A DNA stretch of 10,000 bases from Desulfarculus sp. (GTDB lineage Bacteria; Desulfobacterota; Desulfarculia; Desulfarculales; Desulfarculaceae): assembly GCA_020216805.1 (NCBI GenBank), contig JAIWNN010000110.1, positions 1-10,000 on the forward strand, written 5' to 3'. The position numbers were made by a program, and so were the translations under genes. Below the pieces are notes generated by a model. The model saw only the letters and a list, made by a program, of their open reading frames with translations. It searched no databases and was not told where the DNA came from. The first letter of the stretch is position 1. Every line of letters begins with the position of its first letter. Below are positions 2,026-10,000 of this stretch, piece by piece.

Positions 2026-3231
2026 TCAGTTGGCGATCAAGCTCGCGGTTCGGGTGATGCGGTGCAGGGGGTAGACGTTGCCCGGTCGGGGTTCATAGCG
2101 CAGGTCGACCTCGACCTTCCCCTGATGCACCCCCGGCGGCAGAGGAATCTCAAAAAGATCCTCCTTGGGCGCAAAGGGTTGGATGCTGGTGTCGCGCAGA
2201 AAACCCAGCTTCTTGTCCGGTCCCAACACCATCTGGCTGCCGCGCGAATCGCCGGCCTGAGGCATATAGATTCTCTCGGCGTGGAAGAAAGGCTTGCCGT
2301 CCGGCGTGTTGGCGGTCACCTCCAGGACCACCTTGGTCTTGGACGGTCAGCCATCCGGGATGCGATGGCCAGCCCGGCTGGTGATCTTGGTCCTGACGAC
2401 CATCATCGGTCTGATGTCACCATCTTTGGGCTGAAAACGATAGGCCATGGCCTGCACTTCCAGGGGCAGGGCTTGGCGCAACCGCTCCGCGGTCTCCGGA
2501 CGGTTGTTGAAATTGGGCGGCATGTAATGGTTGGAGCCCGGCATGTGGCAATCTTGACAGGTCTGACCGCCGCCGCTGGGGATGTAGCCGTGCAGGTAGC
2601 TGCCGTAGAGCGTGGCGCACTGAATGGGCGTCTCGAAATCCAACACCGGCCCCTGGCCATGACACTGGCCGCAGAACAAAGCGCTTTTCATGAAGGGGCT
2701 TTTCTTGATCGGCCGCCCGGGATGGTCGGGGATGTCGCGGCTGCCGTAAAGAACTCCCGGCTCGGGGCGGCCATGCACGATCGCCTTGTCGCCATGGCAG
2801 ACCACGCAGCCAATGTTGAGCTTGCGCACGGTGGCCTTGTCATCGGCCAACACCGCCCGGGCCAGCTCGGCCGCGGCCTGGTCCGAGGCTGGCAGCAGCT
2901 GGGGCAAATGGCACTTGGCGCATGGGAAATTGGCGGCGGCCGAGATCTTGGCCGGGTCCTTGATGGCCAGCGGCCCTCCCTTGAGATAGGGTCCCATGAT
3001 GATCCAGTCATCCATGCCCATCAGAGACCGGGCGTGGTGCGATCCCTCCCATTGCTGGTGAATGTCTTCGTGACACTCGCGGCAATTTGATGAATCATAG
3101 CGGGCGATCAGCCCGGCCAGGTCGTTCGCGGCGGTTTGGGATGCCGGCAACGGCCGTGGTGCGGCCCAGGTCAGCCACATGATGCCGAGCAAGCCCAGCG
3201 CCGACGCGCCGGCTTTTATTGCGCGCGACAT
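2026..3231 (-). CDS. Pentahaem c-type cytochrome with an in-frame TGA at codon 295
   Basis: The reading frame from ATG 3231 has 401 codons, of which codon 295 (2347-2349) is TGA. Before it lie a hydrophobic signal peptide or anchor (about residues 5-24) and five haem-binding CxxCH motifs: CRECH (50-54), CAKCH (104-108), CVVCH (142-146), CGQCH (187-191) and CQDCH (225-229). The protein should be periplasmic or extracytoplasmic and carry electrons, but its partner is unknown. The same frame continues after the TGA for 106 codons to 2026 with ordinary codon use and a beta-rich sequence (KVVLEVTANTPDGK), of the kind that follows GH-x-x-P-x-G in other multihaem cytochromes. The TGA therefore cuts one gene rather than separating two. 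If it acts as a stop, the product is 294 residues and keeps all five haem sites. The start at 3231 gives a sensible signal peptide, with GAAGGGG upstream; the frame is open further but would run through ccdA. It follows ccdA by 13 bases, fitting co-transcription with its likely maturation factors. Confidence 0.8.
2311..2332 (-). promoter_or_regulatory. Hairpin just after the in-frame TGA (possible SECIS-like element)
   Basis: On the minus strand GGTGGTC (2332-2326) and GACCGCC (2317-2311) pair over seven positions, one of them G-U, around the eight-base loop CTGGAGGT. The loop begins 22 bases after the TGA, in the range usual for bacterial SECIS elements. A competing hairpin, TCCAAGACC (2343-2335) with GGTCCTGGA (2329-2321), has one A-C mismatch and loop AAGGT, but sits closer to the TGA than usual. 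Neither loop begins with the G typical of bacterial SECIS elements. GC-rich coding DNA forms such stems by chance, so this is only suggestive. Confidence 0.25.
2347..2349 (-). other. In-frame TGA in the cytochrome gene: stop, error or selenocysteine
   Basis: On the minus strand the codons read GAT GGC TGA CCG TCC AAG. The reading frame is unchanged on both sides, so this is a single-codon interruption and not a frameshift. One base change from TGG or TGC would restore the frame. Hairpins lie directly downstream (see the next entry), so decoding as selenocysteine cannot be dismissed. No selA, selB, selC or selD is in the window. Confidence 0.75.
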
Positions 3232-3244
3232 CTGGTCCGCCCCT

Positions 3245-3949
3245 TCAGCCCTCCAGGAAGGGCATGACCGCGAAGTAAATCCCCAGCACGCCAATGGCCA
3301 CGCCGGCCGCCTTGCGGAACCATATTGACCCCGCCTGCATGGAGCCGTTGTCCAGGATGCGCTGCACCAGGGCGGTGGAGCTTCCCGCCACGGCGATGGG
3401 CAGGCTGTGACCGATGCCGAAGAGCGCAATCAGCAGCAAGCCGGTCATGATCTCCTGCTGCACGGTGATGATGGCCAGAATGGGGGCGATGAAGCCGAAG
3501 GTGCAGGAGCCGGAGAGCAGGCCATAGGCCAGCCCCAGGATGAAAGCTCCGCTGAGGCCCTTCACCTTCAACCTGGCCATCATCCCACCGGAAATGGAGC
3601 ATTGGGCCACCCCCAGCATGTCCAGGGCCACCCAGATCAGGACCGCGCCCACCAGGATGGTCCACCAGGAGCCCACGTCGCCCAGCATGCGCCCCAGCAG
3701 GGTGCAGGCCACCCCCACCGCGGCGATGGTCAGGAACAGGCCGCCGGTGAAGGCGAAGGCGTAGTGCGCTCCCCGCCAATGGTGCGCCGTGTCCCGCTGG
3801 CCGGCCACGTAACCCACCATCAGCGGGATGGAGGCCAAGTGGCAAGGGCTGAAGATCACGCTGACCATTCCCCACAGGAAACAGCCAACGGCGGCCAGGA
3901 AGCTTCCGCTGATCATCCAGGCGTTGAGAGTCAGGAAGAACTGATCCAT
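3245..3949 (-). CDS. ccdA: CcdA/DsbD-type transmembrane thiol-disulfide transporter
   Basis: A 234-residue inner-membrane protein of the CcdA family, which passes reducing equivalents from cytoplasmic thioredoxin to thiol proteins outside the membrane. About six hydrophobic helices are visible. The two family cysteines occur in their expected settings: SPCHLASIP (Cys36) and SGSCTFGFIAP (Cys149), the pair that cycles between dithiol and disulfide. Extra cysteines at 23, 82 and 117 are less conserved in kind. The length is that of a stand-alone CcdA without the periplasmic domains of DsbD. The ATG at 3949 follows the thioredoxin stop by ten bases, and its ribosome site (TAGGAG) overlaps that stop codon, so translation of the two is probably coupled. 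The partner order Trx-CcdA-cytochrome suggests reduction of apocytochrome CxxCH cysteines, though general extracytoplasmic thiol reduction is also possible. Confidence 0.92.
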   Translation of the reverse strand: MDQFFLTLNAWMISGSFLAAVGCFLWGMVSVIFSPCHLASIPLMVGYVAGQRDTAHHWRGAHYAFAFTGGLFLTIAAVGVACTLLGRMLGDVGSWWTILVGAVLIWVALDMLGVAQCSISGGMMARLKVKGLSGAFILGLAYGLLSGSCTFGFIAPILAIITVQQEIMTGLLLIALFGIGHSLPIAVAGSSTALVQRILDNGSMQAGSIWFRKAAGVAIGVLGIYFAVMPFLEG

Positions 3950-3959
3950 GCCGGCGCTC

Positions 3960-4364
3960 CTACTTCACCCCCAGTTTGGCCAAGGCCGCCTTGATGCTCT
4001 CCTTGTCCATGAACCCCAGGTGACGTCCCACTTCATTGCCCTGGGCGTCGTAGAAAATCTGGGTCGGGATGCCACGGACACGATACTTGTCCACTGCGGC
4101 GCGATCATAGCGCACATCGATGTAGGCGATCACCGCCTTGCCCGCGTACTCCTCCTTCAACTCTTCCAGAATGGGAGCCATCATCTTGCAAGGGATGCAG
4201 GCGCCGGCCCCCACGTCCACCAGGTTCACCATGCCCTTGATCGGCAGCTCCTGGCTGCTTCTCGCCGCGAACGGGCCCATGGTCATCATCGCCAGCAGCA
4301 AAAGCGGTACAGTTACAAACTTGGGCAGGGCCCGCATCCGGTTTACTCTTTCGATCAATTGCAT
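3960..4364 (-). CDS. Membrane-anchored thioredoxin-like protein (CIPC active site)
   Basis: A 134-residue thioredoxin-fold protein with an N-terminal hydrophobic segment (about residues 14-31) that should place the domain outside the inner membrane as a signal peptide or anchor. The active site is CIPC (56-59) rather than the usual CGPC. The cis-proline loop GIPTQIFYD (98-106) and the C-terminal GRHLGFMDKES complete the fold. With CcdA directly downstream it most likely forms a ResA/CcmG-like or general extracytoplasmic thiol-reduction pair. I prefer ATG 4364 because AAGGTGG precedes it by about five bases. GTG 4373 adds three residues and ATG 4337 removes nine, which would keep the hydrophobic segment. 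It is separated from pal by 89 bases holding a strong inverted repeat. No symbol is given because resA, ccmG and tlpA cannot be told apart here. Confidence 0.88.
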   Translation of the reverse strand: MQLIERVNRMRALPKFVTVPLLLLAMMTMGPFAARSSQELPIKGMVNLVDVGAGACIPCKMMAPILEELKEEYAGKAVIAYIDVRYDRAAVDKYRVRGIPTQIFYDAQGNEVGRHLGFMDKESIKAALAKLGVK

Positions 4365-4381
4365 GCTTTCCACCTTGGGGG

Positions 4382-4453: not shown

Positions 4454-4978
4454 CTACTTGATGACGAAATGGGCGCGGCGATTGGCGGCGTAGGCCTCCT
4501 CGGTGTGGCCCGGCACCAGCGGCCGCTCCTTGCCGTAGCTGACGGTCTCCATCCTCTGGGCGGCCACACCCATGGACTGCAAATAGGCCTTGGCCGCCAA
4601 TGCGCGCTTTTCGCCCAAGGCCAGGTTGTAGGCGGACGAGCCGCGCTCGTCGCAATGGCCCTCGATGATCACCGCCACCCCGGGGCGCTCCGTGAGGTAG
4701 GCCGCCTTGTCATTCAAGATCTGCCGGGCCTCGGGTCGCAGATCGTAGCGATCGAAATCGAAATGAATATCTTGGTTCTCGAACTGGGTCTTGAGTTGCG
4801 CTTCCCGGATCGCCTGCTGCTGGCGCAGGCGTTCGGCCGCGTCATCGGTTGGCGCTGGCGCGGGGGCCGTCGCCTCGGGTGTCGGGGTCGGCGTGCTGGC
4901 GCAACCAGCCAGGCCGAGCAGCAACAAAGCGCAGACGCCAAAGACCATCCATCCCAACTTGCCTTGATACCGTCGCAT
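4454..4978 (-). CDS. pal: Peptidoglycan-associated lipoprotein (Pal, OmpA-like domain)
   Basis: A 174-residue outer-membrane lipoprotein that tethers the outer membrane to peptidoglycan. The lipoprotein signal ends in LAGC with the lipidated Cys at residue 26, followed by a Pro/Thr-rich linker (29-43). A short charged helix (45-68) leads into IHFDFDRYDL (71-80). The OmpA_C domain carries EGHCDERG (106-113), whose Asp110 and Arg112 correspond to the diaminopimelate-binding residues of the family, and ends with ANRRAHFVIK. The length is close to E. coli Pal (173 as I know it). ATG 4978 has a purine-rich site (AAGAGGAAAGAG) directly upstream; a TTG at 5017 would put charged residues ahead of the signal peptide. 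Pal normally sits with tolB and ybgF; none is here, so this is an isolated copy inside an arsenic/redox cluster. A cysteine replaces the usual small residue in the EGHxDERG motif. Confidence 0.93.
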   Translation of the reverse strand: MRRYQGKLGWMVFGVCALLLLGLAGCASTPTPTPEATAPAPAPTDDAAERLRQQQAIREAQLKTQFENQDIHFDFDRYDLRPEARQILNDKAAYLTERPGVAVIIEGHCDERGSSAYNLALGEKRALAAKAYLQSMGVAAQRMETVSYGKERPLVPGHTEEAYAANRRAHFVIK

Positions 4979-5028
4979 CTCTTTCCTCTTTCGTTTTCCA
5001 GACCAAGGGTAAGGCAAGTCCCGGACCT

Positions 5029-6120
5029 TCAGGGCTTGCAGCTCACATGACAGACCCCGGTGGGGGTCTCCACCGCATACGGGAAATACTTGCGTTTGAA
5101 AACGAGGGCCACGTTGACCAGACTGATGAGCACCGGCACTTCCACCAAGGGGCCGATCACCGCCGCGAAGGCCTGGCCCGAATCCAATCCAAAGACCGCC
5201 ACCGCCACCGCGATGGCCAACTCGAAGTTGTTGCTGGCCGCGGTGAAGGACAGCGTGGTGGCTTGCTCATAGGTGGCCTTGGCCTTGATGGACAGCCAGA
5301 AGGAGACCAGGAACATCACCACGAAATAGATGCACAGGGGAATGGCCACCCGCACCACGTCCAGGGGCAGTTCCACGATGTACTCGCCCTTGAGCGAAAA
5401 CATGACCAGAATGGTGAACAAAAGGGCGATCAGGGTGATGGGGCTGATGCGGGGGATGAACTTCTCCTCGTACCACTGACGGCCCTTGGTCTGCAGCCCT
5501 ATGACCCGGCTGAGCACGCCGCCGATGAAGGGAACGCCTAGGTAGATGAAGACGCTCTCGGCGATCTGGCCGATGCCGATGTTCACCACCACTCCCTGCA
5601 GACCAAGCCACTGCGGCGCCAGGGTAATGAAGAACCAGGCGTAGACCGAGAAGAACAGCACCTGGAAGATGCTGTTGAAGGCCACCAGGCCGGCGCAGTA
5701 CTCGCGATCACCGGAGGCTAGGTCGTTCCAGACGATGACCATGGCGATGCAACGGGCCAGGCCGATCAGGATCAAACCCACCATGTATTCGTGGTGGCCG
5801 GAAAGGAAAGTCACGGCCAGGGCGAACATCAGCATGGGGCCGATGACCCAGTTTTGCACCAGGGACAGCGCCAGCACCCGGAAATTGCGAAACACCTGGC
5901 CCAGCTGTTCATACTTCACTTTCGCCAGGGGAGGGTACATCATCAGGATTAGGCCAATGGCGATGGGAATATTGGTGGTGCCGACCGAGAAGTGATTGAT
6001 CACTTCCCGCACCCCTGGGTGCAGCCAACCCCAGCCCACCCCCACCAACATGGCCAGAAAAATCCAAAGCGTCAGGAAACGGTCCAGAAAGGACAGCTTC
6101 TTGATACCTGGTTCAGTCAC
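5029..6120 (-). CDS. acr3: Arsenite efflux transporter, ACR3 family
   Basis: A 363-residue inner-membrane carrier that exports arsenite (and possibly antimonite) using the proton gradient. About ten hydrophobic helices can be traced. The family cysteine is in [18 protein letters not shown] (Cys124), and the essential helix glutamate is in [15 protein letters not shown] (Glu300); these correspond to Cys129 and Glu305 of the Alkaliphilus Acr3. The start is GTG at 6120, with AAGGAGAG about six bases upstream; no ATG fits as well. It follows arsC by 27 bases, the classic arsC-acr3 arrangement that couples arsenate reduction with export. The last ten residues, GVCHVSCKP preceded by Thr, form an unusual cysteine- and histidine-containing tail after the last helix. 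Some genomes label this family arsB, but the sequence is of the ACR3 type and not the unrelated ArsB. Confidence 0.97.
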
Positions 6121-6147
6121 CGCATCTCTCCTTGCCAGGTCTTGACG

Positions 6148-6579
6148 TCAGGAATCCAAGGACTCCGGCAGCCGCTCCACCATGGATCGGATCTCGTCGC
6201 GCACCCGGCGGTAGTGGCCCAGGGCCTCCTCCTCGCTGGCGGCGCCGGCGGCCAAATACGGCGGATCGTCGAAGCCCTTGTGAACCCGCTTGGCCACGCC
6301 GGGAAACAACGGGCAGGACTCGCGGGCGTTGTCGCAGAGAGTCACCACCCAGTCCCAAGGCTGGCCGACGAATGGATCGATGGTTTTGCTGGTCTGGCCG
6401 GAGATGTCAACGCCGATCTCGGCCATGACCTTGACCGCGCGCGGATCCACGGACTTGGGCTCCACCCCGGCGCTGTGGGCCTCGAACTCGGCGCCACGCA
6501 GGGCGTTGGTCAAGCCCTCGGCCATCTGGCTGCGACAGGAGTTGCCGGTGCACAAATAAAGGATGCGACGTTTATTCAT
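6148..6579 (-). CDS. arsC: Arsenate reductase, thioredoxin-coupled (LMW-PTP fold)
   Basis: A 143-residue cytoplasmic enzyme that reduces arsenate to arsenite for export by Acr3. The phosphatase-like P-loop CTGNSCRS starts at Cys10 and includes Cys15 and Arg16. The redox pair Cys82 and Cys89 lies in VVTLCDNARESCPLFPG. These positions are the same as in Staphylococcus aureus pI258 ArsC, in which Cys10, Cys82 and Cys89 relay the disulfide that thioredoxin then reduces. SAGVEPKSVDPRAVKVM is also typical. The ATG at 6579 is the only reasonable start, although its ribosome site (GGCGGG, about nine bases away) is weak. It follows the first arsC-like gene by 24 bases and precedes acr3 by 27, so the three probably share a transcript from the promoter near 7100. 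Confidence 0.96.
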   Translation of the reverse strand: MNKRRILYLCTGNSCRSQMAEGLTNALRGAEFEAHSAGVEPKSVDPRAVKVMAEIGVDISGQTSKTIDPFVGQPWDWVVTLCDNARESCPLFPGVAKRVHKGFDDPPYLAAGAASEEEALGHYRRVRDEIRSMVERLPESLDS

Positions 6580-6603
6580 GACAATTAACCCGCCGAACCT
6601 GAA

Positions 6604-7026
6604 TCATCGCGCCCGCCACCATTGCGTAACCCGCTGCTTGATCTGATCCCGAATGGCCCTGACCGTGGCCAGGCGCTGCTCCTGGTCACCCCCCACCGCG
6701 GCCGGATCGGGAAAGGGCCAGTGCAGGCGGTGCGTGATCCCGGGAAAGATCGGGCATTGATTTTCGGTATCATCGCACACGGTGATCACGTAATCATACA
6801 ACTTTCCCTGTCGATATAGCTCAAAGACGCTCTGCGGCCGTTGCCCGCTGATGTCGATCCCTTCCTCGGCCATCACCTGGACGGCCAAGGGATTGAGCGG
6901 CTCGGGTTTAAAACCGGCGCTGTCCACCTCCAGATCGTCGCCCGCCAGTTGGCGCAGATAGGCCTGGGCCATCTGGCTGCGAGCGCTGTTGTGGACGCAA
7001 ACGAACAACACCCTTGCCTGGGACAT
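6604..7026 (-). CDS. arsC: Second arsenate reductase / LMW-PTP-fold protein
   Basis: A 140-residue protein of the low-molecular-weight phosphatase fold, related to the neighbouring ArsC but clearly divergent. Its P-loop is CVHNSARSQMA with Cys10 and Arg16; Ala15 replaces the extra cysteine of its neighbour. A redox-type cysteine pair is kept at Cys84 and Cys91 in ITVCDDTENQCPIFPG, so an arsenate-reductase triad (10/84/91) is possible and a plain phosphatase less likely. SAGFKPEPLNPLAVQVM matches the ArsC-type segment. I chose ATG 7026 because AAGGAG lies just upstream and it places the catalytic Cys at residue 10 as in the family; the spacing is short, and ATG 7038 adds four residues. It is the first gene after the TATAAT box at 7100-7105, hence probably the leading gene of the arsC-arsC-acr3 operon. 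Confidence 0.92.
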   Translation of the reverse strand: MSQARVLFVCVHNSARSQMAQAYLRQLAGDDLEVDSAGFKPEPLNPLAVQVMAEEGIDISGQRPQSVFELYRQGKLYDYVITVCDDTENQCPIFPGITHRLHWPFPDPAAVGGDQEQRLATVRAIRDQIKQRVTQWWRAR

Positions 7027-7094
7027 GGACTCCTTCATTCAGGGGTTGGCGAACACCATGTCCCTAATCATAACAGAGGCGCTAACCAGTGAAT

Positions 7095-7117
7095 ATGACA
7101 TTATATCGTCATGATAT
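7095..7117. promoter_or_regulatory. AT-rich palindromic operator overlapping the ars promoter
   Basis: ATATC-GTCAT-GATAT (7103-7117) is a perfect 5-bp interrupted palindrome overlapping three bases of the TATAAT box. A second dyad, ATGAC (7095-7099) with GTCAT (7108-7112), overlaps it. Placement on the -10 box is what a repressor of the ArsR/SmtB family would need, and such operators are typically AT-rich dyads. The regulator itself is not in the window, so the assignment to ArsR is inference from the downstream genes. Confidence 0.45.
7100..7105 (-). promoter_or_regulatory. Candidate -10 box (TATAAT) of the arsC-acr3 operon
   Basis: On the minus strand the consensus hexamer TATAAT occurs in an AT-rich patch that stands out from the GC-rich surroundings, roughly 75 bases before the first arsC start. 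The region 16-18 bases upstream offers only a half-matching -35 (for example CTGGCG or TGGCGA), so activation or an AT-rich melting region may compensate. A second, weaker -10 candidate, TATGAT, lies at 7067-7072. Confidence 0.5.
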
Positions 7118-7246
7118 GGCATCGCCAGCGACCTCTGGCCAAGTCTTTTCGCAAGCCCTCGAAAATCCCAACCCACCCCCTGGGCCCAGGCCCCGGACCG
7201 ATCCGTCGGGCCCGGACACGCTGGCTGCCGACGGTCATCCCATCAT
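7118..7246. other. Intergenic stretch with several dyads and a G-quadruplex motif
   Basis: No gene is supported here. From left to right: TTTTCG-N8-CGAAAA (7146-7165) is a perfect 6-bp dyad. C-runs at 7167-7169, 7172-7174, 7176-7180 and 7185-7187 give a four-tract G-quadruplex motif on the minus strand. CCTGGGCCCAGG (7179-7190) is a perfect palindrome. CCGTCGG (7203-7209) and CCGACGG (7228-7234) form a 7-bp stem just after the stop of the 65-residue gene. The last may help end the upstream transcript, but a T-run does not follow directly. Confidence 0.4.
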
Positions 7247-7444
7247 CTATTTCATCATGTTGCGCATCTGGTCCGGGCCCATGCCTCCCCTCCCCATCAT
7301 CGGCATGCACAATGGCATCATCTCCGCCATCATCTTGCCTGGGGTCCGGCCAAAGGTCTCGGCCATGATCGGCATCGCCTGCTGCATGAAGGCCAGCTTT
7401 TCCTCGTCGCTCAATGCCTTGAACTGATCAAGAATGGTTTTCAT
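7247..7444 (-). CDS. Small methionine-rich protein, function unknown
   Basis: A 65-residue protein I do not recognise. The N-terminal half (MKTILDQFKALSDEEKLAFM) looks like a charged amphipathic helix. The C-terminal half is extremely methionine-rich: 15 of 65 residues are Met, 11 of them between 38 and 64, with MMPLCMPMM at 42-50 and a single Cys46. There is no signal peptide. The start at ATG 7444 is well supported by GGAGG six bases upstream; the frame is open further but lacks such a site and would overlap the next gene. It lies 68 bases after another small gene and just before the ars promoter. A soft-metal or metalloid-binding role would suit the Met/Cys content and the location, but that is a guess. 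Confidence 0.7.
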   Translation of the reverse strand: MKTILDQFKALSDEEKLAFMQQAMPIMAETFGRTPGKMMAEMMPLCMPMMGRGGMGPDQMRNMMK

Positions 7445-7512
7445 CTCACGCCTCCGTTCAATTTCAATCGCTTTTGGGTGAGCGTCATCCCTGACCCGCG
7501 AGTCGGCGAAAG

Positions 7513-7728
7513 CTATTCGTCGGCGACGGGATCCTTTTCCCGTGGGTGGTAATTGGCCTCGCAAACCGGCGCGCAATGCGGACGCATGCGATCGCGCAGT
7601 TTCTTTTCCAGGCACTCTTTCATGAAGGCCAGCGCTTCCTGGGCGTCTTCGTCGAGCAGGATGCCCATCATCCTCTGTACCTCGGCTGGCTCCAGCTCCA
7701 ACAGAATCTTGTCCATGTGAGGGCGCAT
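7513..7728 (-). CDS. Small helical protein with a C-terminal cysteine pair, function unknown
   Basis: A 71-residue protein I do not recognise. Residues 5-48 look helical and charged (KILLELEPAEVQRMMGILLD and onward), with Cys39 inside. A short C-terminal tail carries RPHCAPVCEANYH, giving Cys52 and Cys56 next to His51 and His61, a layout that could bind a metal. There is no signal peptide or membrane segment. ATG 7728 has GGGAGG four bases upstream; ATG 7716 is an internal alternative. It follows the MFS-DGC chimera by 45 bases and precedes the Met-rich small gene by 68, so the three are probably co-transcribed. Together with that neighbour it may form a small accessory pair of the locus. Confidence 0.7.
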   Translation of the reverse strand: MRPHMDKILLELEPAEVQRMMGILLDEDAQEALAFMKECLEKKLRDRMRPHCAPVCEANYHPREKDPVADE

Positions 7729-7773
7729 ATGGCCTCCCGCGATTATTCGAGCCTTAGGAGCTCGGGCGCGGTA

Positions 7774-8832
7774 TCAAGCCTGGTTCTTGGCGGCCTGGCG
7801 GGCGGCGTTCTTGACCGTCTCCAGGGTGGCCCGGTCCAGGTTGAAGTCCTTGTTCTTGGCGATGCCGAGGTCGGTCAGGACGACATACCCGCGCAGGGGC
7901 ACCCCGGCCTTCCTGAAGATGGCCTTGGCGCAGCCCACCTCGCAACCATCGAGCACCACCATCCGGGGCACGTCCTTGGCCGAGGCCACGAAGCCGGAAA
8001 GCTCGCCGCCGATGCCGGCCAGGCAATACATCTTGACGACACCATCCTGGGTCAGCTCCACGCAGGCCTGGTTGGCGAGCTGGCCCACGCCGGTCATGAT
8101 CAGGCCGATGACGAGATAGTTGTAGTGGTAGGTCTGGGCGATGTAGGCCCCCAGGTAGGAGAAGCTGCCGATGATGAAGATGCCTTCCAACAGAACCAGG
8201 ACATAGGTGCCCAGGCTTCGCCTGTCCCCGAGAAGCTTGGCGTAGGGGGCCAGCAGGCGGCTTTGAGGGTTGCGGGTGGAGGGAAGGGCCTTGTAGCTCT
8301 TCACCAGCATCAGGGTGGGGATGACCGACAGCAGCGCATACAAGGCGAAGACACCCCGCCAGCTCACGAAGTAGGCGGTTATGCCGCCGATGGCCATGCT
8401 GAGGCCCTGGCCCAGGAAGGCGATGCCCATGAAGGTTCCGATGGCCCCCTGGCGCTCCTGGAGCGGGAAGAGGTCACCGATGAGCGCCAGGGATATGGGC
8501 ATCACGGAGGCGGCGAAGACTCCAGTCAGCCCCCGGTAGAGGCTCAGGTCGAACAGACCGAACCCCAGGGCGCATAATCCCGTGGCCAGGGTGAAGATAA
8601 CCATGGAAAAGGTGATGACCTGTTTCTTGCCGTAACGGTCGGCCAAGGGGCCGAATATTAGCTGGAAAAGGCCGAAAGGGACCATGTAGGCGCTGATGAG
8701 CAGGCCGGCCTTGGTGATGTCCACGTCGAGATTTTCGGCAATGGCTGGCAGGATGGGCGACACCACCCAGTTGTCGGCCATGACCACGAATCCCGCCAAC
8801 CCCAGCAACCCGATAATGCTTTTCTTGTTCAT
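7774..8832 (-). CDS. Chimera: truncated MFS transporter fused to a DGC zinc-binding domain
   Basis: A 352-residue frame made of two unrelated parts. Residues 1 to about 247 are the N-terminal half of a major facilitator transporter: about seven helices and the start of an eighth, with motif A as GPLADRYGKKQV (61-72). A full MFS protein has about 12 helices and 400 residues, so the C-terminal half is missing. From about residue 248 the sequence becomes a DGC-family (putative zinc-binding) protein: VGQLANQACVELTQ, KMYCLAGIGGE (Cys270) and the signature LDGCEVGCAKA (Asp295-Gly296-Cys297, Cys301), then GYVVLTDLGIAKNKDF. The usual DGC N-terminus with its own cysteine is absent. The join is in frame near 8083-8100. 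ATG 8832 has GAGGA five bases upstream. DGC proteins commonly occur in ars/thioredoxin clusters, so that half fits the locus. Neither half is likely to work as its parent did; a deletion between neighbouring genes or an assembly join would both explain it. Confidence 0.75.
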   Translation of the reverse strand: MNKKSIIGLLGLAGFVVMADNWVVSPILPAIAENLDVDITKAGLLISAYMVPFGLFQLIFGPLADRYGKKQVITFSMVIFTLATGLCALGFGLFDLSLYRGLTGVFAASVMPISLALIGDLFPLQERQGAIGTFMGIAFLGQGLSMAIGGITAYFVSWRGVFALYALLSVIPTLMLVKSYKALPSTRNPQSRLLAPYAKLLGDRRSLGTYVLVLLEGIFIIGSFSYLGAYIAQTYHYNYLVIGLIMTGVGQLANQACVELTQDGVVKMYCLAGIGGELSGFVASAKDVPRMVVLDGCEVGCAKAIFRKAGVPLRGYVVLTDLGIAKNKDFNLDRATLETVKNAARQAAKNQA

Positions 8833-8921
8833 GTCGTTCCTCGGCCGGGCGCGCTCGGTTGTTCCGCCTGCTCCTCGTCCGGTATTCCGTCAGTTGTCCG
8901 ACGCGACTCTTCGGCGCCGGT

Positions 8922-9155
8922 TCACTTGCCCAACCAGGCCAGCACTTCCTGCTTGCTGGGCACCTTGCCCACGCTCTTGACCTGGCCGTCGATCACCACC
9001 GCCGGGGTGCCGAACACCCCGTAGGCCGCGATCTCCATGACCCCGGTGACCTTCTCCACCTGGGCATCCGCGCCCGACTCGGCCACCGCCTGCCGGACGA
9101 TCTCCTCGGTCTGCTTGCACTTGGGGCAGCCCGGCCCCAGAACCTTGATGTCCAT
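8922..9155 (-). CDS. Small thioredoxin-fold redox protein (CPKC), permease partner
   Basis: A 77-residue cytoplasmic protein of the short thioredoxin-like family often annotated as redox-active disulfide protein 2 (MTH895/TM0996 type). The active site CPKC is at 10-13 and the cis-proline loop GTPAVVIDG at 49-57; the length is normal for this compact fold. The ATG at 9155 is preceded by GGAGGAAGGAG, a strong ribosome site. It follows the permease gene by 22 bases. Pairing of such a small redox protein with a DUF318/YraQ permease is frequent in archaea and anaerobic bacteria, which suggests the two act together. A role as electron donor to arsenate reductase is possible because ArsC of this type needs a thioredoxin, but this is inference. 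Confidence 0.93.
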   Translation of the reverse strand: MDIKVLGPGCPKCKQTEEIVRQAVAESGADAQVEKVTGVMEIAAYGVFGTPAVVIDGQVKSVGKVPSKQEVLAWLGK

Positions 9156-9177
9156 GCTTAGCTCCTTCCTCCTGGGA

Positions 9178-10000
9178 TTACACGAAAAACGCGCCGTAGA
9201 CCATGCCGGCCACGGTGGAAAGGATCACGATAATCGAGCAGAAGACCACCGTCTTTCTCCAGCCCATCACCCCGCCGATCACCAGCATGTTGGGCAGCGA
9301 CAGGGCCGGACCGGCCAAGAGCAGGGCCAGGGCCGGCCCCTGGCCCATGCCGGAGCCGATCAGCCCCTGCAGGATGGGTATCTCGGTCAGGGTGGCGAAA
9401 TACATCAGCGCCCCGGCCACCGAGGCGAAGAGGTTGGCCCAGAGGGAGTTGCCGCCCACCAGCATCTGGATGTAGCGCTCGGGAATCAGCGCCTCGTGCC
9501 CCGGCCGACCCAGCAGGAAGCCCGCCACCAGCACTCCCGCGCCCAACAAGGGGAAGATCTGCTTCATGAAGCCCCAGGTGGACTGCACCCAGGTTTGCAA
9601 CTCGTCCTTCTGGAACCAGGCTCGCAGAATCAGGCCCAGGACGACCAGCAGGGCCACGGTCAGGTACCACTTGGCCGCGAAGATCATCTGCCACAGGCCG
9701 CCCTCGCCCTCGGCCGGCCTGGCGAAGGCCGCGAAGACCAGGATCAGCACCATGACCAGCATGAACACCGCCTCTTGCCACAAGGCCCGGCCCTTTTCGC
9801 CCTCCTCGGGCAGGTACATCTGCCCGGCGGTGCGCTGGGCGTCATCCTTGCGGAAGATGAATGCCATCAACAGGCCGGTGACCACCGCGAACAACACAGC
9901 GCCCACCGCGCGCGCCAGGCCCAGCTCCCAGCCCAGGATGCGCGCGGTCAGCACGATGGCCAGCACGTTGATGGCCGGGCCGGAGTAGAGAAAGGCCGTG
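9178..10000 (-). CDS. YraQ/DUF318-family permease, N-terminus beyond the window
   Basis: A polytopic inner-membrane protein of the DUF318 (YraQ, ArsP_1) permease family, incomplete because its start lies right of base 10000. The frame stays open to the edge and the edge codons read TAFLYSGPAINVLAIVLTA, the conserved first-half motif of the family, so a GTG at 9966 is not the true start. A second copy of the family pattern follows later: GNSLWANLFASVAGALMYFATLT and the segment LAGPALSLPNMLVIGGVMG near the C-terminus. A hydrophilic loop with FRKDDAQ and YLPEEGEKG separates the two halves. Some members (ArsP) export trivalent organoarsenicals and others have no known substrate. The position at the head of an arsenic/thioredoxin cluster makes a metalloid substrate reasonable but unproven. 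It ends in TAA at 9178, 22 bases before the small thioredoxin gene. Confidence 0.93.
   Translation of the reverse strand, partial: TAFLYSGPAINVLAIVLTARILGWELGLARAVGAVLFAVVTGLLMAFIFRKDDAQRTAGQMYLPEEGEKGRALWQEAVFMLVMVLILVFAAFARPAEGEGGLWQMIFAAKWYLTVALLVVLGLILRAWFQKDELQTWVQSTWGFMKQIFPLLGAGVLVAGFLLGRPGHEALIPERYIQMLVGGNSLWANLFASVAGALMYFATLTEIPILQGLIGSGMGQGPALALLLAGPALSLPNMLVIGGVMGWRKTVVFCSIIVILSTVAGMVYGAFFV

Follow-up and report, generated by a model that had tools for sequence, protein, structure and literature searches.

A conserved in-frame UGA in a pentahaem c-type cytochrome gene of Desulfarculus sp. is almost certainly read as selenocysteine

The stretch of DNA analysed here (the window; 10,000 nucleotides from Desulfarculus sp.) carries a five-haem cytochrome gene whose internal TGA is almost certainly read as selenocysteine. 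We put at about 0.96 the probability that the gene's product is an exported pentahaem c-type cytochrome belonging to the MccSep/ExtKL selenoprotein family, with selenocysteine inserted at UGA-295 through the SelB pathway. Reading-frame translation places the gene at 3231 to 2026 of the minus strand, with 401 codons followed by a terminal TGA. It holds one internal TGA only, at codon 295 (window 2349-2347), with five CxxCH haem motifs upstream (Cys50, 104, 142, 187 and 225) and 106 open codons downstream. The first-pass annotation had described a frame intact on both sides of a single TGA at codon 295 of 401 and all five motifs before it, and its coordinates and codon numbers were right, the minus strand being unmentioned there. 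It had also taken the 106 codons for the natural C-terminal part, and this was borne out by their homology to the C-terminal part of relatives, which is more than chance would give, and by the alignment with MccSep. The features of the window to which we refer below are as follows.

2026 to 3231, minus strand: pentahaem c-type cytochrome selenoprotein (MccSep/ExtKL family), assigned from its frame, the NF040886 match and the MccSep alignment
2347 to 2349, minus strand: in-frame TGA, codon 295, almost certainly read as selenocysteine (conserved TGA, aligned with the non-standard residue X of 9wt8)
2311 to 2332, minus strand: putative SECIS-like hairpin within the coding sequence (third-base conservation, pair counts, window fold)
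2545 to 3084, minus strand: stretch with the five CxxCH motifs (residues 50-54, 104-108, 142-146, 187-191 and 225-229)
2041 to 2463, minus strand: predicted C-terminal beta-sandwich (residues ~257-397), with the TGA between two strands (AlphaFold2 model)
3245 to 3949, minus strand: DsbD/CcdA-type membrane protein (Pfam PF02683), 13 nucleotides upstream of the cytochrome
3960 to 4373, minus strand: thioredoxin-domain protein (Pfam PF00085) whose N-terminus looks like an export signal by eye
4454 to 9966, minus strand: rest of an arsenic-type gene cluster (Pfam)
7247 to 7615, minus strand: unassigned open reading frame (ORF) in the arsenic-type cluster
about 8922 to 9155, minus strand: small thioredoxin-like ORF in the arsenic-type cluster

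The family profile NF040886 of NCBIfam matches residues 27-395 of the 401 (profile positions 25-419 of 423) with 433.1 bits against a cut-off of 250, and its name, multiheme c-type cytochrome (seleno)protein ExtKL, allows for selenocysteine, while Pfam gave general cytochrome domains only. MccSep aligns with residues 30-366 of the window protein (E 8.3e-67), and the residue given as X in 9wt8, which is Ala in the U325A mutant, falls on codon 295 within IPDG-U-P. The codon aligned with Sec325 of MccSep is UGA in the window gene and in those close relatives whose match covers it, and Cys stands there in one homologue (P0004).

Representative genomes were scanned and yielded 112 relatives, from which 80 loci were kept, with codon 295 covered in 71. 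Among the 37 closest loci (L013-L049, down to ~28% identity), all 36 that cover the site have TGA at the homologous codon; the match of the remaining one (L036) ends at residue 278, short of the site. The other 35 covered loci are all distant relatives with a sense codon there, Ser or Asn in 27, and one distant relative (L090) shows TGC in a doubtful alignment. Within the same class, the gene is present in 12 of 63 genomes, the window's own included, with one TGA inside each match, and the TGA occupies the homologous codon in all 11 of the other class relatives, 10 of which are new (L113 lies on the same contig as L013). Altogether, 46 other genomes share the TGA (the 36 close relatives and the 10 further class genomes). 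Five CxxCH motifs precede it in 35 of the 36 relatives, the exception (L033) having a broken frame. A protein search gave 833 matches, of which 120 were listed. In 119 of these, the protein terminates precisely with HR[IVF]PDG, just short of the TGA; the remaining one, P0004, is full length and has Cys at the site. The comparison of homologues that had been proposed earlier thus yields Cys in one homologue, while Trp was seen at the site in none of the relatives examined. In a divergent Nitrospirota-type branch (L044-L048), PHG replaces PDG before a UGA that is kept, and the hairpin is somewhat different (GCGG...CCGT).

In bacteria, the SECIS element is a hairpin just after the UGA, within the coding sequence. 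For the window gene and 36 relatives, simulations based on the codon usage of each gene, in which kinship was ignored, gave the third-base entropy to be expected. The observed entropy was far below this at codons +6 to +11 downstream of the TGA (z of −17.8, −16.1, −9.6, −12.2, −29.2 and −10.5) and at the codon before it (−16.5); the lowest values among the remaining 35 codons tested between −12 and +30 were −6.4 at +22 and −5.9 at +5. The frozen stretch coincides with a hairpin at nucleotides 18-39 counted from the T of TGA, with nucleotides 19-24 and 33-38 taken as the stem for counting. On 47 distinct sequences, 90.1% of the cells were paired, compared with 87.3% (sd 0.4) in shuffles that ignore kinship, and pairing dropped to 24-61% when the partners were slid by 1-3 columns. 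Both sides had changed in 5 cells over 3 pairs (GC to CG 1, GC to AU 1, CG to GC 2, CG to GU 1). Two counts in the slid controls equal or surpass those of the hairpin: a shift of +1 gives 7 doubly changed cells, and a shift of −3 gives 9 further pair types. The outermost pair fails in 17 of the 47 sequences. Taken by itself, the hairpin of the window has no unusual stability (z −0.94, with 35 of 200 shuffles folding as well), and Rfam gave three sub-threshold matches on the window, none to a SECIS family. RNAalifold on 37 sequences missed the hairpin and returned another three-pair structure of negligible energy; we therefore relied on third-base conservation and on the counted pairs. Judged from these aligned sequences, a conserved SECIS-like hairpin appears to follow the UGA closely within the coding sequence, with some compensatory changes.

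The window's genome is a metagenome-type assembly of 1.83 Mb in 171 contigs and is 55% complete. A search of the genome for selA, selB, selC and selD, suggested in the first-pass annotation, turned up SelA, SelB and SelD, each above its profile cut-off, and no selC in this 55%-complete genome, where a repeat search gave the same best match. The four best tRNA-Sec candidates coincide with genes for standard tRNAs (Ser, Trp, Ser and a Thr/Gly pair), none was found on the selA, selB and selD contigs, and tRNA-Sec was not above cut-off in the closest relative. Better-assembled genomes from the same family yielded it above cut-off in 6 of 7 cases, and ARAGORN called all six tRNA-SeC(TCA). SelD is probably a second selenoprotein, since the early part of its own gene has a Gly codon followed by an in-frame TGA (L095 1919-1921, contig C34). 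Of the 37 genomes that contain L013-L049, 32 have SelB above cut-off, and 4 of the other 5 have SelA; within the class, SelB is present in 11 of the 12 genomes that carry the cytochrome versus 32 of the 51 that lack it (Fisher p 0.083; 63 genomes). Genomes where the distant relative shows a sense codon at the site served as controls (32 of the 35 such loci were included), and SelA matched in 29 of 32, one match being weak at 52.9 bits. Since SelA is common in these genomes too, co-occurrence of the machinery is weak evidence. The selenocysteine option raised earlier is supported by the conserved TGA of the relatives, by the Cys of one homologue and by the presence of SelA, SelB and SelD; a genome devoid of selenocysteine machinery, which would have spoken against it, is not what was found.

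An incomplete metagenome-type assembly such as this one (171 contigs, 55% complete) invites the suspicion of a sequencing or assembly error, or of a TGG or TGC codon hit by a recent nonsense mutation, and a change of this kind had been listed as an option beside selenocysteine. However, the same TGA stands in 46 other genomes and the bases downstream of it are under constraint at the RNA level, leaving this explanation a negligible chance; the codon-295 TGA is neither an error nor gene decay. Equally improbable is a reading of UGA as some other amino acid, by reassignment of the code to Trp or Gly or by a suppressor tRNA. Nothing was found in support of reassignment, several window genes end in TGA (e.g. 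5029-6120, 6148-6579, 6604-7038 and the cytochrome itself), so that UGA is a stop in this genome, selenocysteine machinery is present, and the full-length homologue P0004 has Cys.

Slightly less remote, yet still very improbable, is a true stop, in which case the product would be a 294-residue pentahaem protein and the downstream part a relic or a separate gene. The five haem motifs do precede the TGA, and 119 of the 120 database proteins listed end there, although gene finders treat any UGA in this way. By contrast, 36 relatives have an open, homologous frame downstream, the predicted beta-sandwich has strands on either side of the site, P0004 continues past it with Cys, and the PDB entries of MccSep, which carry the name multiheme cytochrome c selenoprotein, have chains that extend beyond it. 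A working truncated product, to which the earlier remark on haem binding points, is slightly disfavoured, given that the TGA lies inside the predicted beta-sandwich and that there would be no point in conserving the downstream bases if translation never went beyond the TGA. On the grounds given, all four alternatives (error, nonsense mutation, true stop and code reassignment) were rejected. Recoding of UGA-295 to selenocysteine is, at the level of sequence, strongly supported.

For the recoded cytochrome, we propose that the UGA at codon 295 would be read as selenocysteine during translation through the SelB pathway, with the hairpin ~15 nucleotides after the UGA, inside the coding sequence, recruiting SelB with Sec-tRNA. 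An AlphaFold2 model built with 36 sequences (mean pLDDT 79.7, pTM 0.77) places residue 295 in a loop; the loop belongs to a C-terminal beta-sandwich, which has strands at 257-266 and 274-283 before the residue and from 300-308 onward after it. Sec295 would accordingly be predicted in the conserved stretch GHxIPDG-U, in the loop of a beta-sandwich behind the five haems of a protein that is presumably exported and haem-loaded. It would most likely act as a catalytic or haem-near redox residue exchanging electrons with the haem chain. Cys205, which lies outside the haem motifs, and His289 are invariant in the 36-row alignment and are candidate partners of Sec295. In this class, the neighbouring thioredoxin and DsbD-type proteins probably serve to mature the apocytochrome or to maintain its Sec/Cys site in the reduced state.

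A Pfam scan of ten ORFs of the window gave DsbD, thioredoxin, OmpA, SBF, LMWPc, MFS-DGC, ArsP_1 and CMAS, with one ORF lacking a match. The stretch at 4454 to 9966 (minus strand) holds an OmpA family protein, an SBF transporter (which we take to be Acr3-like), two LMWPc proteins (presumably ArsC-like), the MFS-DGC ORF and an ArsP_1 permease. In that MFS-DGC ORF (7774-8832, minus strand), residues 11-247 match the first part of an MFS transporter and residues 249-342 a DGC domain; the two matches lie apart in L116, L118 and L120, and L113 has DGC without MFS, so either a fusion by deletion or an assembly chimera would account for the joined form. Acr3-like matches in two class genomes carry one in-frame TGA each (G074:C369:9404-10435 and G087:C81:3072-4109).

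Thioredoxin and DsbD-type genes lie just upstream of the cytochrome in 10 of the 12 class loci, and the same 10 have an ArsP or Acr3-like transporter within the locus (Acr3-like at at least 80% in 7). L115 is without thioredoxin, DsbD, ArsP and Acr3-like genes in 19.9 kb, and L123 has only 338 nucleotides before the contig end. A DsbD protein occurs in 11 of 12 class genomes with the cytochrome versus 7 of 51 without (Fisher p 5e-7, kinship ignored). In three of those seven cytochrome-less genomes (G110, G126 and G127), the DsbD gene is on the same contig as, and near, an Acr3-like gene; for this reason, thioredoxin and DsbD may be components of the arsenic cluster to which the cytochrome was added. 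Acr3-like and DsbD genes are also close by in L013, L014 and L015, while any neighbour gene of the window appears in only 1 of the 34 loci L016-L049 (L030), whose flanks are of unequal length. ORF clustering over the window and L013-L049 brought out no neighbourhood common to the whole family, and the link of the cytochrome with the arsenic cluster is lineage-specific. The placement of the cytochrome just behind thioredoxin/DsbD-type genes in an arsenic cluster, in this class, is possibly new.

Such a recurring thioredoxin, DsbD and arsenic-gene neighbourhood offers a testable lead on the function of these cytochromes, and as regards a role of the cytochrome in arsenic chemistry it is a lead only. 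One tentative reading, which we hold to be rather unlikely, is that in this class the cytochrome is functionally integrated into an arsenic operon and is fed by thioredoxin and a CcdA-type carrier, with Sec295 performing or sensing a redox step on arsenic, or on arsenic-attacked thiols or selenium species, outside the cytoplasm; Cys205 could then be the selenenylsulfide partner. If this held, it would constitute a selenoprotein arsenic module. Selenocysteine in a multihaem cytochrome is unusual chemistry in any event, and the family is mis-annotated as a rule, the 119 of the 120 database homologues listed (of 833) ending one residue before the UGA. The window adds a clear case to the family: conservation at both the protein and the RNA level agrees with most of the selenocysteine machinery.

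Compared with known systems, the best Foldseek match of the model is 5ze8, the pentahaem cytochrome c552 of Thermochromatium tepidum (E 1.8e-14, TM 0.58/0.60, 429 columns), a relative without Sec that is ~20% identical and has Ala at the aligned position (PTGAPF). In Geobacter, rhodanese-type and other ext genes adjoin within the ext cluster, which encodes an outer-membrane electron conduit and whose gene surroundings differ from those of the window gene; no rhodanese was found among the ten window ORFs scanned with Pfam. Elsewhere in the window's genome, an ORF near selA on contig C107 (L093 5079-6398, minus strand) has a C-terminal half that, by eye, resembles an exported rhodanese-type protein. 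The nearest solved chains to the window protein are those of MccSep (PDB 9wt8, 9wta and 9wtb; U325A mutant 9wt9 and 9wtc), whose chain is longer (450 residues, a tag or signal possibly included); relatives of comparable type are ~38-42% identical. With regard to NF040886, the family score, the length coverage and the five CxxCH motifs before the Sec site all fit, and no feature of the window protein would exclude membership. Because the NF040886 score lies far above its cut-off and MccSep has its non-standard residue at the same site, the window protein is a new member of a known, already named selenoprotein family.
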